This document shows, piece by piece, positions 24,608 to 31,100 of a stretch of 64,000 nucleotides of DNA (its first letter is position 1; each line of letters starts with the position of its first letter). The position numbers and the translations under genes are program-made. The stretch spans positions 1 to 64,000 of the forward strand of contig PKCI01000061.1 in assembly GCA_002862135.1 (NCBI GenBank), written 5' to 3'. Below the pieces are notes generated by a model, which was given only the letters and a program-made list of their open reading frames with translations, was not told the DNA's origin and searched no databases. This DNA comes from Verrucomicrobiota bacterium (lineage in GTDB: Bacteria > Verrucomicrobiota > Verrucomicrobiia > Verrucomicrobiales > DEV007).

Positions 24608-25444
24608 CTATCGCATTCTGCCGGAAGCCTCGCAAATCTGGCGCCATAAAGTAGCGTCGGTCGGATCTTCACTCATGAACTGGAAATTGAGGTTTCCGAA
24701 CATATCAAAGATACGAAGGGCGGAATAAGGGCTGCCGTCAAGTTCCTCAACATCGATCACCATGGCATGCAAAAAGCGCATATCAATGTGAGCGGCGCAA
24801 TTCGCGTCGGCACCTGTCAGAATCACAAAGCCGCCCCCGGTGGCAAGAGTTTCAACATTCAGCGTGGTTGCTAAATCCACGTGATCACTGAGAAGGCGAA
24901 ATTCAAGTTGGGTCTGGTGTTTCCGGGCTTCCTCAAGAATGGTAAACAGGGGATGAGAACGAATTTGATCAACCCGACCTTCGGCGCTCTTTTGGCAGCA
25001 GGGACACATATCGTGGCAGGGTGAAAATTCTTTTCGCCACTCCACGACCTCTTTGGAAGGAATACTTTTCGAAGAAAAGCTATCTGTCAGTTTCTGGATT
25101 GCTCCGGGTTCACTGATATCAGGGAATTCGTGCAAACTGACGCCCGCCGGAAATTCCCGAAACTCAATATCGATTGCCGGGGCACCAATTGGCTCGTAAC
25201 CGGCGAGGCCGGAGTGGGCAGCAACAATAGAAGCGACCGCGATCTCTATGCGGTTGTCGGGATCAATGGCTTTGGTGGAATGTTCAACCATGATGGGTGA
25301 AAACTGGTCAACCATCTTTCCGAGGCCCCCGCTGCGATTACGTGCCTGAAAGTAGAAGCCCCCGAAACTTGAGATTGCCTCCAGGAGAGAATGATAATTT
25401 CCGCTCAGACGGTGTGATGTTTCGTGATCCAGTAGGTGCTTCAT
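24608..25444 (-). CDS. HmuS/ChuX-like putative heme-utilisation protein
   Basis: A 278-residue soluble protein from the ATG at 25444; longer starts upstream encode improbable sequence. The C-terminal half resembles one repeat of hemin-degrading HmuS/HemS proteins: a helix LFTILEEARKHQTQLEFRLL, then AAHIDMRFLHAMVID and SALRIFDMFGNLNFQF, matching 'HL..DAIA..WVV' and 'LELFDA.G.LI.QFF'. The N-terminal half is not recognised. A cysteine cluster CHDMCPCC near residue 140 is unusual for the family and may bind metal. It converges on the AraC gene (37 bases between stops). The identification is tentative. Confidence 0.55.
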   Translation of the reverse strand: MKHLLDHETSHRLSGNYHSLLEAISSFGGFYFQARNRSGGLGKMVDQFSPIMVEHSTKAIDPDNRIEIAVASIVAAHSGLAGYEPIGAPAIDIEFREFPAGVSLHEFPDISEPGAIQKLTDSFSSKSIPSKEVVEWRKEFSPCHDMCPCCQKSAEGRVDQIRSHPLFTILEEARKHQTQLEFRLLSDHVDLATTLNVETLATGGGFVILTGADANCAAHIDMRFLHAMVIDVEELDGSPYSALRIFDMFGNLNFQFMSEDPTDATLWRQICEASGRMR

Positions 25445-25588
25445 AAGCCGAGTCCTATTTAGGCGCGAAAGGAAGGCGCTGCTCCCGAGGGATTGCACCG
25501 ATCTGGTGTTTGATTGCGATTTCGCAAGGCGACGGCAGACTTGGCAAGGAGACGCGAGCGGCAATTCAAAATGGCTGCATGGTAGGGC

Positions 25589-25726
25589 ATGACGATTTCC
25601 AATTTTGATTCCCGTTTCAAAGGCACTTTCAGTGTTCCCTCCGACCGGGTGTTGTTGGTGAAGCAATTGGAAAGAGAACTTCGCGAACGTCGCCGGCAAA
25701 AGCGCTTCCGGGCAAAGTCAGCCTAA
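25589..25726 (+). CDS. Possible small basic protein (45 residues)
   Basis: An ATG at 25589 opens a 45-codon frame ending TAA at 25724-25726. The N-terminal half is mixed (MTISNFDSRFKGTFSVP) and the C-terminal half is a charged, Arg/Lys-rich helix (LERELRERRRQKRF). A GGTAGGG precedes the ATG by a few bases and could serve as a ribosome site. It is divergent from the HmuS-like gene and ends about 160 bases before purD. It does not match HemP or another small protein known to me. Confidence 0.35.
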   Translation: MTISNFDSRFKGTFSVPSDRVLLVKQLERELRERRRQKRFRAKSA

Positions 25727-25889
25727 GTTTGATCGGCTTTCAACATCCCGGTTGAACGGGGGAACTGCGCTTTGGGGGATCTTTTTTCTCCCTTGGCTGG
25801 AAATTTATTCAAACGTGCTTACGATGGTCGTCCCGGTCGCTGTGCTCACGCAGCGGACCGGCCATCAAATTTCGGTTTATCCCTTGTTT

Positions 25890-27140
25890 ATGAAAGTCCT
25901 CGTTGTTGGAAAAGGCGGTCGCGAGCATGCGATCGTTACGGCACTTCATGAATCTCCAACTGAGACGGAGATCTATTCCTTCCCTGGGTCTGATGCCATT
26001 TTTGAGCTGGCGAAGCCGGTTGAGGCGGATGGCGTGGCCTCCCTTATTTCTGCGATGCAGGAAATGAACATCGATTTGTGCGTTGCCGGTGAGGAGAGCT
26101 ACCTGGTGAAGGACGAGGGACTCGCGAATGCCTGTGCTGTTGCCGGGATTCCCTGCTGGGGCCCTCCGAAAGAAGCCGCCCAACTTGAAGCGAGTAAGGA
26201 GTTCGCCAAGGAATTCATGGTCCGCCAATCTATTCCGACCGGCGGTTATTCTCCGGTTGAAACCATCGAAGAAGCGCGGGCGGCCATTGATGGAAAATAT
26301 CCCACCGTACTGAAGTTCGACGGGCTTGCAGCAGGCAAGGGCGTCGCCGTCTGCATGACCGAAGGCGACGCAGAAGAGTTTCTCGACGAAGTCCTGGTGC
26401 AGCAGAAATTTGGTCCCGGCCGCCTCCTGGTCGAGGAGTATCTTGAGGGTCCGGAGATTTCAATTTTCGCTTCGGTTGTCGATGGTGATTACCAGATTCT
26501 TGCTCCGGCTCGTGACTACAAGCGCATCTACGATGCTGACGAAGGCCCCAACACAGGAGGCATGGGAGCCGTGAGCTCGCTCGACATGTTCGAAGGTGAT
26601 CTTCGTTCCGTGATCGACGAGACCATCGTGCGTCCGACCGTGGTAGGGCTTCAGAACGAGGTCCTGCCGTATCGCGGCTTCCTCTACTTCGGGCTCATGT
26701 TGACGGAGAACGGCCCCAAAGTCATCGAATACAACTGTCGCTTCGGCGATCCCGAAGCCGAGGCGGTTCTGCCGATGGTCGAAGGTGATTTCGCGGCTCA
26801 TGTGTTTGAAGGGGCCAAGGGGAGCCTCAATCCCGACCTGGTCAGCTTCAAGGACGGTTGGAGCATCTGCCTCGTGTCTGCCTCAGCGGGATATCCGGCC
26901 AGTTCCCGCAGTGGTGATGTGATTTCAGGACTGGATCAGGTTTCCAATGCCCGCGTTTTCCACGCCGGAACCAAGCTGAATGAAGCCGGTCAGTTCGAGA
27001 CCGCCGGTGGCCGTGTTCTTGTGGTTGTCGCGAGCGGATCGACTCGGGAAGAGGCTGTCGCCAACGTCTACCGGGAGAGCGAAAAGGTTACTTTCGATGG
27101 GAGGCAGCGCCGGACTGACATCGGAACACGAAATTTTTAA
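25890..27140 (+). CDS. purD: Phosphoribosylamine-glycine ligase
   Basis: GAR synthetase, second step of purine synthesis, of ATP-grasp fold. The ATG at 25890 gives the proper start MKVLVVGKGGREHAIV; longer frames upstream encode unrelated sequence. The protein is 416 residues. Signatures: FDGLAAGKGVAVCM (ATP binding), GPNTGGMGAVS, YFGLMLTENGPKVIEYNCRFGDPEAE with the metal-binding Glu/Asn. The middle residue of the first glycine loop is Lys (GKGGREHA) where most have Ser. It begins a second nucleotide cluster that continues with pyrR. Confidence 0.96.
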   Translation: MKVLVVGKGGREHAIVTALHESPTETEIYSFPGSDAIFELAKPVEADGVASLISAMQEMNIDLCVAGEESYLVKDEGLANACAVAGIPCWGPPKEAAQLEASKEFAKEFMVRQSIPTGGYSPVETIEEARAAIDGKYPTVLKFDGLAAGKGVAVCMTEGDAEEFLDEVLVQQKFGPGRLLVEEYLEGPEISIFASVVDGDYQILAPARDYKRIYDADEGPNTGGMGAVSSLDMFEGDLRSVIDETIVRPTVVGLQNEVLPYRGFLYFGLMLTENGPKVIEYNCRFGDPEAEAVLPMVEGDFAAHVFEGAKGSLNPDLVSFKDGWSICLVSASAGYPASSRSGDVISGLDQVSNARVFHAGTKLNEAGQFETAGGRVLVVVASGSTREEAVANVYRESEKVTFDGRQRRTDIGTRNF

Positions 27141-27237
27141 TAGCGCTTCCTCGATTTATGACTAGAGGTAGAGGGGTGCCGGATGAATCGGTGCCTGGCT
27201 TCGTGTCAAAACTTCCCCGTTTCTTCGGCAACACTAC

Positions 27238-27789
27238 TTGAGTGATACAGCTGACATCACCACCGAAGAGATCCTCACTCCTGAGGGGATTGAGGAGACC
27301 ATAGCCATTTTAGCGAGTGAAATCGAATCCCGCTGTGCAGATCAGGAACTTGCCTTTGTTGGCGTTTACACCCGTGGAGTGACATTGGCCCGACGCGTAG
27401 CTGCCGCCCTGGCGGGACGGGGTAGGAACTATCCGGTCGGCACTCTCGATATTTCGCTCTATCGGGACGACTTCAATAATCGTGGGCGCGACCTGCCGAC
27501 GCTGAACAGTTCGGACGTTCCCTTTGGGCTCGAGGGAACCCGGGTGATCCTCTTTGATGAGGTCATCTTTACCGGTCGCACGGTTCGCGCCGCGCTTGAT
27601 GCTCTGGCCGACTATGGGCGCCCGTCCAAGATTGAGTTGGCGGTGCTGGTGGACCGAGGGCATCGGGAAATCCCGGTTCAGCCTGATTACGTTGGTCGAA
27701 TAATCGAAACTGATTTAAAGCAATACGTGAAAGTTCGATTCCAGGAAGACGACGAGAAAGAGGGGGTCTTCCTAGTGACTGAGAAATGA
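27238..27789 (+). CDS. pyrR: PyrR-like pyrimidine operon regulator/uracil phosphoribosyltransferase
   Basis: PRTase-fold protein of 183 residues. In Bacillus PyrR binds UMP and pyr mRNA, and also has uracil phosphoribosyltransferase activity. Signatures: AFVGVYTRGVTLARRV, GTLDISLYRDDF, and the PRPP loop VILFDEVIFTGRTVRAALDAL (the typical D-D-V here reads D-E-V), plus LVDRGHREIPVQPDYVG. Start codon is TTG at 27238. Its stop overlaps the pyrB start by four bases (ATGA), so it is translationally coupled to the gene it likely regulates. I see no clear PyrR RNA-binding loop in the ~100-base leader. Confidence 0.92.
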   Translation: MSDTADITTEEILTPEGIEETIAILASEIESRCADQELAFVGVYTRGVTLARRVAAALAGRGRNYPVGTLDISLYRDDFNNRGRDLPTLNSSDVPFGLEGTRVILFDEVIFTGRTVRAALDALADYGRPSKIELAVLVDRGHREIPVQPDYVGRIIETDLKQYVKVRFQEDDEKEGVFLVTEK

Positions 27790-28724
27790 GTGAGTTAAAG
27801 CCGCGGAAAGATCTTCTCGATATCGAAAGCCTCTCACTGGAGGAGATTGAATACATTTTCGAGAACGCGGCTCCGTTCAAACAGCTCTTCCAACGTTCAG
27901 TGAAGAAAGTGCCCACCCTGCGAGGCAAAACGGTATTGAACCTCTTCTACGAGCCCTCGACTCGGACCAGTTCTTCTTTCGAGGTCGCCGCCAGTCGAAT
28001 GTCGGCAGACGTGACTAACTTCACCGTTTCAAGTTCTTCGGTCGTAAAAGGCGAGTCACTGCTCGATACCATCGAGACCCTGCAGGCGATGCGATCGGAC
28101 TACATCGTGATCCGCCACCAGGCAGCGGGTGTCCCTGGGATTGTAGCCAAGCACACGAACGCTTCGGTCATCAACGCAGGTGACGGATATCATGCTCATC
28201 CCACTCAGGCTCTGCTCGACTCGATGACCTTTCGGGAAGTCTATCCGGACTACCAGGGCAGGAAAGTGATCATCGTGGGAGATATTCTTCACTCACGGGT
28301 GGCTCGCTCCACCAGTATGCTTTTCAACAAGCTGGGGATAGAAGTCGGAGTGTTAGGGCCTGGATCCTTGGTCCCGGAGGGAAGACATGACTTCATGAAG
28401 CGCTTTCACTCATGGGAGGATGTCTTCGACTGGGGGCCGGATGCGGTCTACCTGTTGCGCGTGCAGTTGGAACGCCAGGAGGGACAGTTTTTCCCGAGCA
28501 TTGCTGAATACCACAAGATGTATGGCATGCATAGCGAGCGTGTCGCCCGAATGCGGCAGTTGGGTGCTTACCTGATGCATCCTGGTCCGGTGAACCGCGG
28601 CGTGGAAATCACAGACGAAGCGATGGGCTATGAGAAGAGTCTAATCAGCACGCAGGTCGAGAATGGCATCGCAGTGCGAATGGCAGTGCTCCACTGGCTC
28701 AAACCCGAAACCGACAAGGACTGA
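27786..28724 (+). CDS. pyrB: Aspartate carbamoyltransferase catalytic subunit
   Basis: Condenses carbamoyl phosphate and aspartate, the committed step of pyrimidine synthesis. The 312-residue protein has the carbamoyl-phosphate motif YEPSTRTSSSFEVAA, KGESLLDTIETL, VIRHQ, GDGYHAHPTQALLD, IVGDILHSRVARS and the C-terminal HPGPVNRGVEI. Five bases separate its stop from the dihydroorotase homologue. No pyrI regulatory subunit is seen. The neighbouring inactive-looking dihydroorotase suggests a Pseudomonas-like PyrB-PyrC' complex. Confidence 0.96.
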   Translation: MSELKPRKDLLDIESLSLEEIEYIFENAAPFKQLFQRSVKKVPTLRGKTVLNLFYEPSTRTSSSFEVAASRMSADVTNFTVSSSSVVKGESLLDTIETLQAMRSDYIVIRHQAAGVPGIVAKHTNASVINAGDGYHAHPTQALLDSMTFREVYPDYQGRKVIIVGDILHSRVARSTSMLFNKLGIEVGVLGPGSLVPEGRHDFMKRFHSWEDVFDWGPDAVYLLRVQLERQEGQFFPSIAEYHKMYGMHSERVARMRQLGAYLMHPGPVNRGVEITDEAMGYEKSLISTQVENGIAVRMAVLHWLKPETDKD

Positions 28725-28729
28725 CCGAT

Positions 28730-29983
28730 ATGCGTCTTTTCAAAAACGGAACTATTGCGAGCGAAGAAACGCCTGAGTTGCAGAAGGCAGACATCCTCGT
28801 GGATGATGAAGGTGTCATTCACCAGATCGCCGAGACGATCGAAGCGGTGGATGGCTCCACCACGGTCGACTGTGACGGTTGTGTCATTGTGCCGGGAATG
28901 TTTGATCTCAACGTGCACGCCCGTGAGCCGGGATTTGAGCACAAGGAAACGCTGTCCAGTTGTGGCGAAGCGGCGATCCATGGAGGGGTGACGGGGTTGG
29001 TTTTGATGCCTGACACCGCGCCTCCGGTCGACAGCGGTAATCTCGTTAAGAGCCTCCAGGATTTGGTTTCCGAAGTGAGCCGGATTCCAATGCATACTTC
29101 CGGTTGCCTCACGAAGAAGCGGGAAGGCAAAGAGCTGGCCGGATTTTCCGGGATGGCATCCCGCGGAGTGACTATGCTGACCGATGCCGACCATGAAGTA
29201 CCTTGTCCCGACCTCTTACGCCGGTGCATGGAGTATGCCAAGGATTTTGACCTGCTGGTCACGACGCATGGTGACACGCCGGCACTGACGAAGGCGGGGG
29301 CGATCAATGAAGGGCACGTTTCCTACAAGCTCGGTTTGCCGGGAATACCGGCGATCAGCCAAGAAATCGCACTCGACCGGGATATTCGGGTTGCCCAGCA
29401 CACCGGTGCGCGGCTGCATCTGCAGCAGGTTTCCACCGCCAATTCGTTGAAGTCAATTGCGGCGGCGAAGGAGGCCGGGACGCAGGTCACTTGCGAGGTT
29501 TCCCCTTATCATTTACTTCTCACCGAAGAGGATGCGGATGATTACAACACCCACTTCAAGATGGATCCGCCACTACGCCTGCAGTCCGATTGCGAAGCGC
29601 TGATTCGAGGGTTGCTCGACGGGGCCATCGACGCGATTGCATCTAATCACGCGCCCCACACCGAGTTCGAAAAGTCAGCTGATTTTGCCAGTGCTCCGTT
29701 CGGTATCAGCGGATTGGAAACGACGGTTTTGGCCTTGTTCGACAGATTTATCAGTGAGGGAACCTTTGGCTGGAACTTGTTGGTGAAAAAGTATTCCGCC
29801 GAACCGCGTCGAATTGTAAACCTCGATCCCGTGAAGATTGCCGAAGGCGAGAAGGCGGAGTTTTTCATCTTTGACCCCAACGGTGAGACCCTTGTTTCCA
29901 AAGACTACCTGAAAACAAAAAGTCCAGTATCACCCTTCTTAGGTCAGACCTTGAAGGGGGCAATACGGGAAACGGTAATCTGA
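28730..29983 (+). CDS. Dihydroorotase-like protein, probably inactive (PyrC')
   Basis: A 417-residue amidohydrolase homologous to type I dihydroorotase, with the family REPGFEHKE, GLVLMPDTAPPVD, NEGHVSYKLGLPGIPA and DPPLRLQSD segments. Three active-site ligands are replaced. The HxH pair reads N-V-H in FDLNVHAREPG. The His before VST is Gln (LHLQQVST). The catalytic Asp of TDHAPH is Asn (SNHAPH). The TPHHL segment reads SPYHL. The central Asp (TDAD) and the His of VTTHGD remain. Such losses mark the non-catalytic PyrC' proteins that stabilise aspartate carbamoyltransferase. It is cotranscribed with pyrB, and a true dihydroorotase should lie elsewhere. Confidence 0.87.
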   Translation: MRLFKNGTIASEETPELQKADILVDDEGVIHQIAETIEAVDGSTTVDCDGCVIVPGMFDLNVHAREPGFEHKETLSSCGEAAIHGGVTGLVLMPDTAPPVDSGNLVKSLQDLVSEVSRIPMHTSGCLTKKREGKELAGFSGMASRGVTMLTDADHEVPCPDLLRRCMEYAKDFDLLVTTHGDTPALTKAGAINEGHVSYKLGLPGIPAISQEIALDRDIRVAQHTGARLHLQQVSTANSLKSIAAAKEAGTQVTCEVSPYHLLLTEEDADDYNTHFKMDPPLRLQSDCEALIRGLLDGAIDAIASNHAPHTEFEKSADFASAPFGISGLETTVLALFDRFISEGTFGWNLLVKKYSAEPRRIVNLDPVKIAEGEKAEFFIFDPNGETLVSKDYLKTKSPVSPFLGQTLKGAIRETVI

Positions 29984-30002
29984 GGTCCAGTTGGCAGCGC
30001 AA

Positions 30003-31100
30003 TCAGTAAGCAATGCAGATTGGGGAAGGGCAGTTCACCACCCGGCCGGTGAAAATCAAACCACCGGTCTCCTGATCGATTTCGAAGATGGAAAGAGTGT
30101 TGGAGTAGCGGCCCGCTGCAATGAGAAAGCTTCCATCGAGGTCGAGGTTGAAGTTGCGTGGCCAGGCACCGCGGATGGCTTCGTTTTCCACAAAGGTAAG
30201 TTTGCCGGTCATCTCATCGACCGAGAAGACGGTGATGTTGTCGGGTCCACGGTTGGCGGCATAGACGAACTTGCCATTCGGGTGAATTCGGATTTCAGAG
30301 GACTTACTGGGAACTTCGAGTTCTTCCAGGGGAATATTCTCAATGGTCTGAATGGATTTGAGCGAGCCGGCTTCGGCGTCGTAGTCGAACACGGTGAGGG
30401 AGAGCAGCAGTTCGTTGAGCAGGTAGACCTTGGAGCCGTCCGGGCTGAACTTCATGTGGCGGGGCCCCCCACCGGGATTAGTCTTGCCGAAGCCGTGGGT
30501 TTCAATGGTTTGCTCCTCGTGATTGATCTTGTAGATGACGATTTTGTCGTTTCCAAGGTCGGGGACAAAAAGGAAGCGATTGTCCGGACTGACACCGGTC
30601 CAGTGGGGGTGAGGTGATTTCTGACGCTGCTCGTTGGGGCCGGACCCTTCGTGCTTGATGAGCGCGGTCTGTTTGCCGATGGATCCGTCTTCGTTGAGCG
30701 CGAAGGCCGCTGTGGAACCTCCACCATACTGGGCGGTGAAAAGGATGCGGTCTTTCTTGTCGAGACTGACGTGGGCGGCACCTCCATCCCCAATTGGCTG
30801 GGAATTGATGAAGGTCAAATTATCGTCGGAATCCACGCTCCAAGCGGCAACGGAGGGCTCCCCAATTTTACAAACGGCGTAGAGGCGGCTCCGATCTGAA
30901 TTGAGAGTCACCCAACCGGGGCCTTCCACTTCAGCTGCCAGCTTGGGCTCGGTGAGAGTTCCGCTATCGCAGTCGTAGGTGGCTTTGTAGATACCCTTGG
31001 CATTCTTGCCGCCGGTTCCGATCCAGATGACCATTTGTCCAGCATTGGCAATGGTAACGGACAGGGAGATCAGAAGGGTGAGGGATAGACAGGTCTTCAT
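30003..31100 (-). CDS. Exported lactonase-family seven-bladed propeller (YbhE-like)
   Basis: A 365-residue protein from the ATG at 31100, with signal peptide MKTCLSLTLLISLSVTIANA. It belongs to the lactonase/YbhE family, whose cytosolic members hydrolyse 6-phosphogluconolactone: IWIGTGGKNAKGIYKATYD, repeated blade motifs such as NGKFVYAANRGPDNITVFS and the GGGPRHMKFSPDGSKVYLLNE loop are characteristic. The export signal means it probably acts on an external lactone or only as a scaffold. It lies 23 bases downstream of the sulfatase gene, likely one transcript. Confidence 0.87.
   Translation of the reverse strand: MKTCLSLTLLISLSVTIANAGQMVIWIGTGGKNAKGIYKATYDCDSGTLTEPKLAAEVEGPGWVTLNSDRSRLYAVCKIGEPSVAAWSVDSDDNLTFINSQPIGDGGAAHVSLDKKDRILFTAQYGGGSTAAFALNEDGSIGKQTALIKHEGSGPNEQRQKSPHPHWTGVSPDNRFLFVPDLGNDKIVIYKINHEEQTIETHGFGKTNPGGGPRHMKFSPDGSKVYLLNELLLSLTVFDYDAEAGSLKSIQTIENIPLEELEVPSKSSEIRIHPNGKFVYAANRGPDNITVFSVDEMTGKLTFVENEAIRGAWPRNFNLDLDGSFLIAAGRYSNTLSIFEIDQETGGLIFTGRVVNCPSPICIAY

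Follow-up and report, generated by a model that had tools for sequence, protein, structure and literature searches.

Does the gene that follows pyrB in this Verrucomicrobiota genome encode a dihydroorotase, or does it encode a protein that has given up catalysis and stays on as a partner of aspartate carbamoyltransferase (ATCase)? The gene, here called pyrC', lies within a 64,000-nucleotide stretch of DNA (the window), directly behind pyrR and pyrB. The reading frames of pyrR and pyrB overlap by 4 bases, and 5 bases separate pyrB from pyrC'. PyrB itself contains all of the STRT, RHQ, HPTQ, RVARS, RVQ and HPGP motifs. The genes of this region are as follows.

25752..27140, + strand: purD-like gene, ending 97 bases upstream of pyrR (identity from reading of the sequence only)
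27238..27789, + strand: pyrR, uracil phosphoribosyltransferase/regulator family (NF003549, 188.9 bits, cut-off 138)
27786..28724, + strand: pyrB, 312-aa catalytic chain of aspartate carbamoyltransferase (NF002032, 354 bits, cut-off 263)
28730..29983, + strand: pyrC', 417-aa homologue of type I dihydroorotase, predicted to be non-catalytic (TIGR00857, AlphaFold2 model, five changed catalytic positions)

PyrC' matches TIGR00857 over its full length, scoring 330.7 bits where the cut-off is 279, and its nearest solved structures are S. aureus 3gri (E 1.5e-79) and the B. anthracis, Thermus and Aquifex enzymes. An AlphaFold2 model made from 41 aligned sequences has a mean pLDDT of 92.6, with a single weak stretch at about residues 181-210. 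Compared by VIA-align, the model gives Z scores of 55-56 with type I dihydroorotases and superimposes on the PyrB-bound Aquifex chain 3d6n at 2.2 Å over 410 residues (Z 55.2). The modelled fold is that of an intact type I dihydroorotase. The best family models that match PyrC' all bear the name 'dihydroorotase', and automatic naming of such genes misassigns this step of pyrimidine synthesis and hides the true enzyme.

We compared nine catalytic positions, numbered as in Aquifex 3d6n (61, 63, 65, 95, 153, 180, 232, 305 and 309); for Asn95 we assume the role of Asn44 in the E. coli enzyme. Active enzymes have H, H, R, N, D, H, H, D and H at these positions, and PyrC' has N61, H63, R65, D95, A153, H180, Q232, N305 and H309. 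Five of the nine are altered (H61N, N95D, D153A, H232Q and D305N), and H63, R65, H180 and H309 are retained. The altered codons are listed here.

28910..28912, + strand: codon 61, AAC (N), at the Aquifex zinc ligand H61
29012..29014, + strand: codon 95, GAC (D), at the substrate-side Asn95; MPNT to MPDT
29186..29188, + strand: codon 153, GCC (A), at the Aquifex zinc ligand D153 (PMC3880350); TDDG to TDAD
29426..29428, + strand: codon 233, CAG (Q), equivalent to Aquifex H232, which is dispensable for catalysis there (PMC3880350)
29645..29647, + strand: codon 306, AAT (N), equivalent to Aquifex D305; TDHAPH to SNHAPH

An earlier note on this DNA had described three of these changes, HxH to NxH, HVST to QVST and TDHAPH to SNHAPH, from the codons AAC, CAG and AAT. 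All three are real and the codons were read correctly, but the account understated the loss by overlooking N95D and the zinc ligand change D153A, and the weight that it gave to HVST to QVST was misplaced. The Aquifex H180A/H232A double mutant keeps almost full activity (PMC3880350), and H232Q is therefore weak evidence for catalytic loss. The other positions matter more: in Aquifex the zinc is bound by H61, H63 and D153, with D305 next nearest, and the enzyme is inactive without metal (PMC3880350). Only H63 of these four residues is left in PyrC', and D153A, H61N and D305N together constitute strong evidence, at the level of the residues, that the protein has lost catalysis.

The changes are not sequencing errors, because two relatives with 80-82% identity (L015 and L016) carry all five and an independent, partial MAG copy with 97% identity (L129) carries the first three. 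Nor are they due to chance. In 75 intact homologues, 63 columns reach at least 95% invariance, and of these PyrC' is altered at 5 of the 9 catalytic columns but at only 6 of the other 54 (Fisher p 0.006). One could still suppose that PyrC' is a functionless remnant in the course of decay, since its active site is lost and 16 of the 54 non-catalytic invariant columns are altered somewhere in the genus. However, the frame is open in all members, pyrC' adjoins pyrB in all 16 members of the genus in which it was found, and the fold is predicted with confidence. PyrC' is also under strong purifying selection, with dN/dS of 0.05-0.07: we obtained 0.048 against the L129 copy (first 187 residues) and 0.069 for L015 compared with L016, each of which has all five changes, and intact pairs gave 0.018-0.085. 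These low values strongly oppose the remnant reading, which we regard as highly improbable, and therefore point to PyrC' as a pseudoenzyme that is kept.

If PyrC' does not make dihydroorotate, another protein should. The genome has one ATCase above the cut-off (PyrB) and one dihydroorotate dehydrogenase, and therefore a dihydroorotase is needed. A weaker match to the ATCase model on contig C5 is presumably ornithine transcarbamylase. The earlier note had left room for a genome with no other dihydroorotase, in which PyrC' would work through an alternative active site; our search with TIGR00856 instead found a second, apparently intact pyrC on contig C58 (G000:C58:2662-3729), encoding a 365-residue type II protein of the E. 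coli kind. This protein has the motifs DLHTHFRQG (with HTH), MPN, AAKYYP, IHGE, CEHITT and GTDSAPH, and an alignment to 5vgm shows the full catalytic set known from the E. coli enzyme in place (HxH, Asn, Lys, two His and Asp). Its nearest solved structures are E. coli/Vibrio-type PyrC (E 1e-49). It matches TIGR00856 over its full length, with 211 bits under an equivalog cut-off of 293, and since the score is below that cut-off we infer its function and regard it as a divergent type II member. Its neighbours, a sulfatase-like and an aldolase-like gene by reading, include no pyr genes. A further PF01979 match, on contig C39, was rejected as a dihydroorotase because it reads as a NagA-like deacetylase. 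A search for the regulatory chain PyrI (PF01948) gave no match in 30 genomes of the order, this one included, and the control was positive in 7.

We conclude that PyrC' is probably a pseudoenzyme that serves with PyrB as the structural, non-catalytic subunit of a class A2 ATCase, the chemistry being left to the unlinked type II PyrC. The sequence-level features of a class A2 PyrC' are all present: type I homology, residue losses, adjacency to pyrB, no PyrI and a separate, seemingly intact dihydroorotase. In Pseudomonas the corresponding pseudo-dihydroorotase is inactive, yet it is required for assembly and activity of the ATCase; without this 45-kDa chain, PyrB does not form an active trimer (PMC7053772). 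On our reading, the ancestor of PyrC' would have been an active type I dihydroorotase in a pyrR-pyrB-pyrC operon. Gain of a second enzyme would have allowed decay, with loss of the residues for the catalytic zinc and for substrate activation (D153A, H61N, D305N and N95D), and PyrC' would have been retained because PyrB depends on it. As in Pseudomonas, three PyrC' dimers may hold two PyrB trimers together, and ring closure to dihydroorotate would fall to the C58 enzyme. Sequence, genome context, the second dihydroorotase and purifying selection thus give good support to the earlier note's proposal of a non-catalytic PyrC' partnered with PyrB. What counts against it is taken up below: a family in which PyrC' lies away from pyrB, four decayed genomes that have no type II enzyme, an association with type II for which phylogenetic pairing left too few independent pairs, and, as the main caution, the reported activity of P. 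aeruginosa PyrC2.

Variation within the genus bears on two other readings. N95D, D153A or D153S, and H232Q are common to all 16 genus members that have the gene, and the remaining positions vary: H61 (H, N or Q), H63 (H or R), H180 (H or F; one further locus has S) and D305 (D, N, A or G). PyrC' might still catalyse the dihydroorotase reaction in the absence of the usual zinc ligands, as is reported for P. aeruginosa PyrC2; PMC2770081, citing Brichta 2004, describes that protein as lacking the zinc-binding residues and yet active, and four catalytic residues of PyrC' are in place. However, the loss of D153 throughout the genus while H61, H63, H180 and D305 vary looks like drift and not like a new, fixed site, and such drift argues against activity of the PyrC2 type. 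Moreover, the Aquifex enzyme requires its metal, PyrC' would be dispensable as a dihydroorotase given the type II enzyme, and its gene sits with pyrR-pyrB and not with zinc-limitation genes. We consider residual activity quite unlikely. The second reading is that PyrC' is kept for regulation, its dead pocket binding, for example, carbamoyl aspartate or nucleotides and tuning PyrB beyond scaffolding. The three changes shared across the genus could reflect a remodelled pocket, and in class B enzymes the non-catalytic chain PyrI, absent here, has a regulatory role. Against this, the other pocket residues drift, and nucleotide inhibition in P. aeruginosa is ascribed to destabilisation of the dodecamer and not to an allosteric site (PMC7053772). 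A regulatory role is therefore unlikely, and a scaffold for PyrB remains our preferred reading.

The close spacing of the three genes suggests that pyrR, pyrB and pyrC' may be cotranscribed, with putative control by PyrR. An Rfam search of positions 25000-31000 gave no PyrR or other RNA element at E values up to 1, a promoter scan gave no promoter-like site, and terminator-like sites were not clearly above chance. The same order, pyrR-pyrB-pyrC', is found in Pseudomonas. In most intact relatives of family f1, pyrR and pyrB likewise stand beside pyrC, and the operon is therefore older than the loss of the active site. Since this arrangement is usual in the family and also occurs with intact PyrC, the pairing of PyrC' with PyrR, singled out before as a notable combination, carries little weight. 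Four f1 genomes (G038, G053, G115 and G045) yielded, at the thresholds used, no PyrB and no close orthologue of PyrC, which may reflect loss of the operon, its replacement or a gap in the assembly.

We then asked how far active-site loss extends in Verrucomicrobiales, the order in which named relatives place the window and in which 109 of 113 genomes have a match. Most f1 members that lie outside the genus keep an intact site, and G060 and G109 are altered separately; active-site changes also occur in f3, f6, genus g2 of f2, G047 and G098. Parsimony on the PyrB tree requires at least eight changes, both for any change and for zinc-ligand loss, a rough count because the tree is a quick one with many unresolved forks. 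A type II enzyme is present in 30 of 34 genomes with zinc-ligand loss and in 12 of 34 with an intact site (Fisher p 1.2e-5; the genomes are not independent). When type II presence and decay were paired phylogenetically on the tree, the sign was the same, with too few independent pairs to test. The four genomes with a decayed site and no type II enzyme (G001, G016, G034 and G069) are represented by assemblies that are 75-93% complete and mostly fragmented; a search of these four with this genome's own type II protein also found nothing. The type II proteins fall into two grades, E. coli-like at 338-373 bits (f3, f6 and g2) and divergent at 198-226 bits (f1 and f4), which suggests that backup enzymes arrived on at least two occasions.

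Individual lineages differ in the extent and setting of the changes. The L030 and L031 proteins are intact, and L029 is an intermediate changed at N95D, D153A and H232Q only. All 22 genomes of f2 genus g2 (L098-L119) have PyrC beside pyrB with 5-7 of the nine catalytic positions changed, and all g2 genomes that were scanned have an E. coli-like type II PyrC. In f6, loci L081, L084 and L091 are changed only at H61N (plus D305N in L091), with TDDG to TDDP, and may be early stages of decay. The f3 loci (L087-L097, with L178-L188) have a decayed PyrC' away from pyrB, with pyrR and pyrB still together; the intact pyrC of f4 is often detached from pyrB in the same way. Two Planctomycetota loci, L150:3001-4212 and L152:3001-4218, have separate losses; their nine positions read RHGDEYNGV and RHGDEFKDV, and pyrB is nearby. 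A search of plasmid records for PyrC' relatives gave only homologues below 60% identity, the best of which, from Hymenobacter, is intact by reading.

PyrC' beside PyrB is already known. The new part is the repeated, graded decay of the active site within one order, Verrucomicrobiales, almost only with a type II enzyme. Our literature search found no report of PyrC' beside PyrB for Verrucomicrobiota, which is weak evidence given its limited coverage, and the titles and abstracts retrieved for dihydroorotase in Akkermansia included nothing relevant. We put at about even the chance that, in this order, active class A1 ATCase-dihydroorotase pairs turned into pairs of the class A2 pseudoenzyme kind on at least eight independent occasions, after two different type II dihydroorotases had entered, with intermediates changed at 1-7 of the nine positions and with PyrB's need for a partner outliving the partner's chemistry. 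The order forms a natural series of intact, partly changed and fully decayed sites, with and without a backup enzyme, that lets one ask whether redundancy precedes decay and whether the structural dependence of PyrB keeps the dead enzyme.

Among known systems, the closest is the Pseudomonas class A2 ATCase, PyrB with a pseudo-dihydroorotase PyrC' (Schurr 1995; Patel 2020, PMC7053772). Both systems have PyrB beside an apparently inactive type I homologue, a separate dihydroorotase that is active or predicted to be so, no PyrI and similar chain sizes; they differ in phylum, and the complex known from Pseudomonas is a predicted one here. Among the sequences compared, the nearest homologues of PyrC' outside the genus are intact Verrucomicrobiota enzymes, and the loss is therefore most likely independent of that in Pseudomonas. 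The class A1 ATCase-dihydroorotase dodecamer of Aquifex aeolicus (3d6n) shares the type I fold and the two-gene partnership, but its subunit is active and keeps H61, H63, D153 and D305, of which PyrC' has only H63. The pseudo-dihydroorotase domain of the fungal CAD-like protein Ura2 is likewise a homologue without zinc ligands tied to an ATCase, although it is a fused domain of a eukaryotic multienzyme and PyrC' is a separate gene. P. aeruginosa PyrC2 resembles PyrC' in its missing zinc-binding residues; unlike PyrC', it is reported to be active and is linked to zinc limitation, whereas PyrC' is linked to pyrR-pyrB in a genome with a predicted intact type II enzyme.
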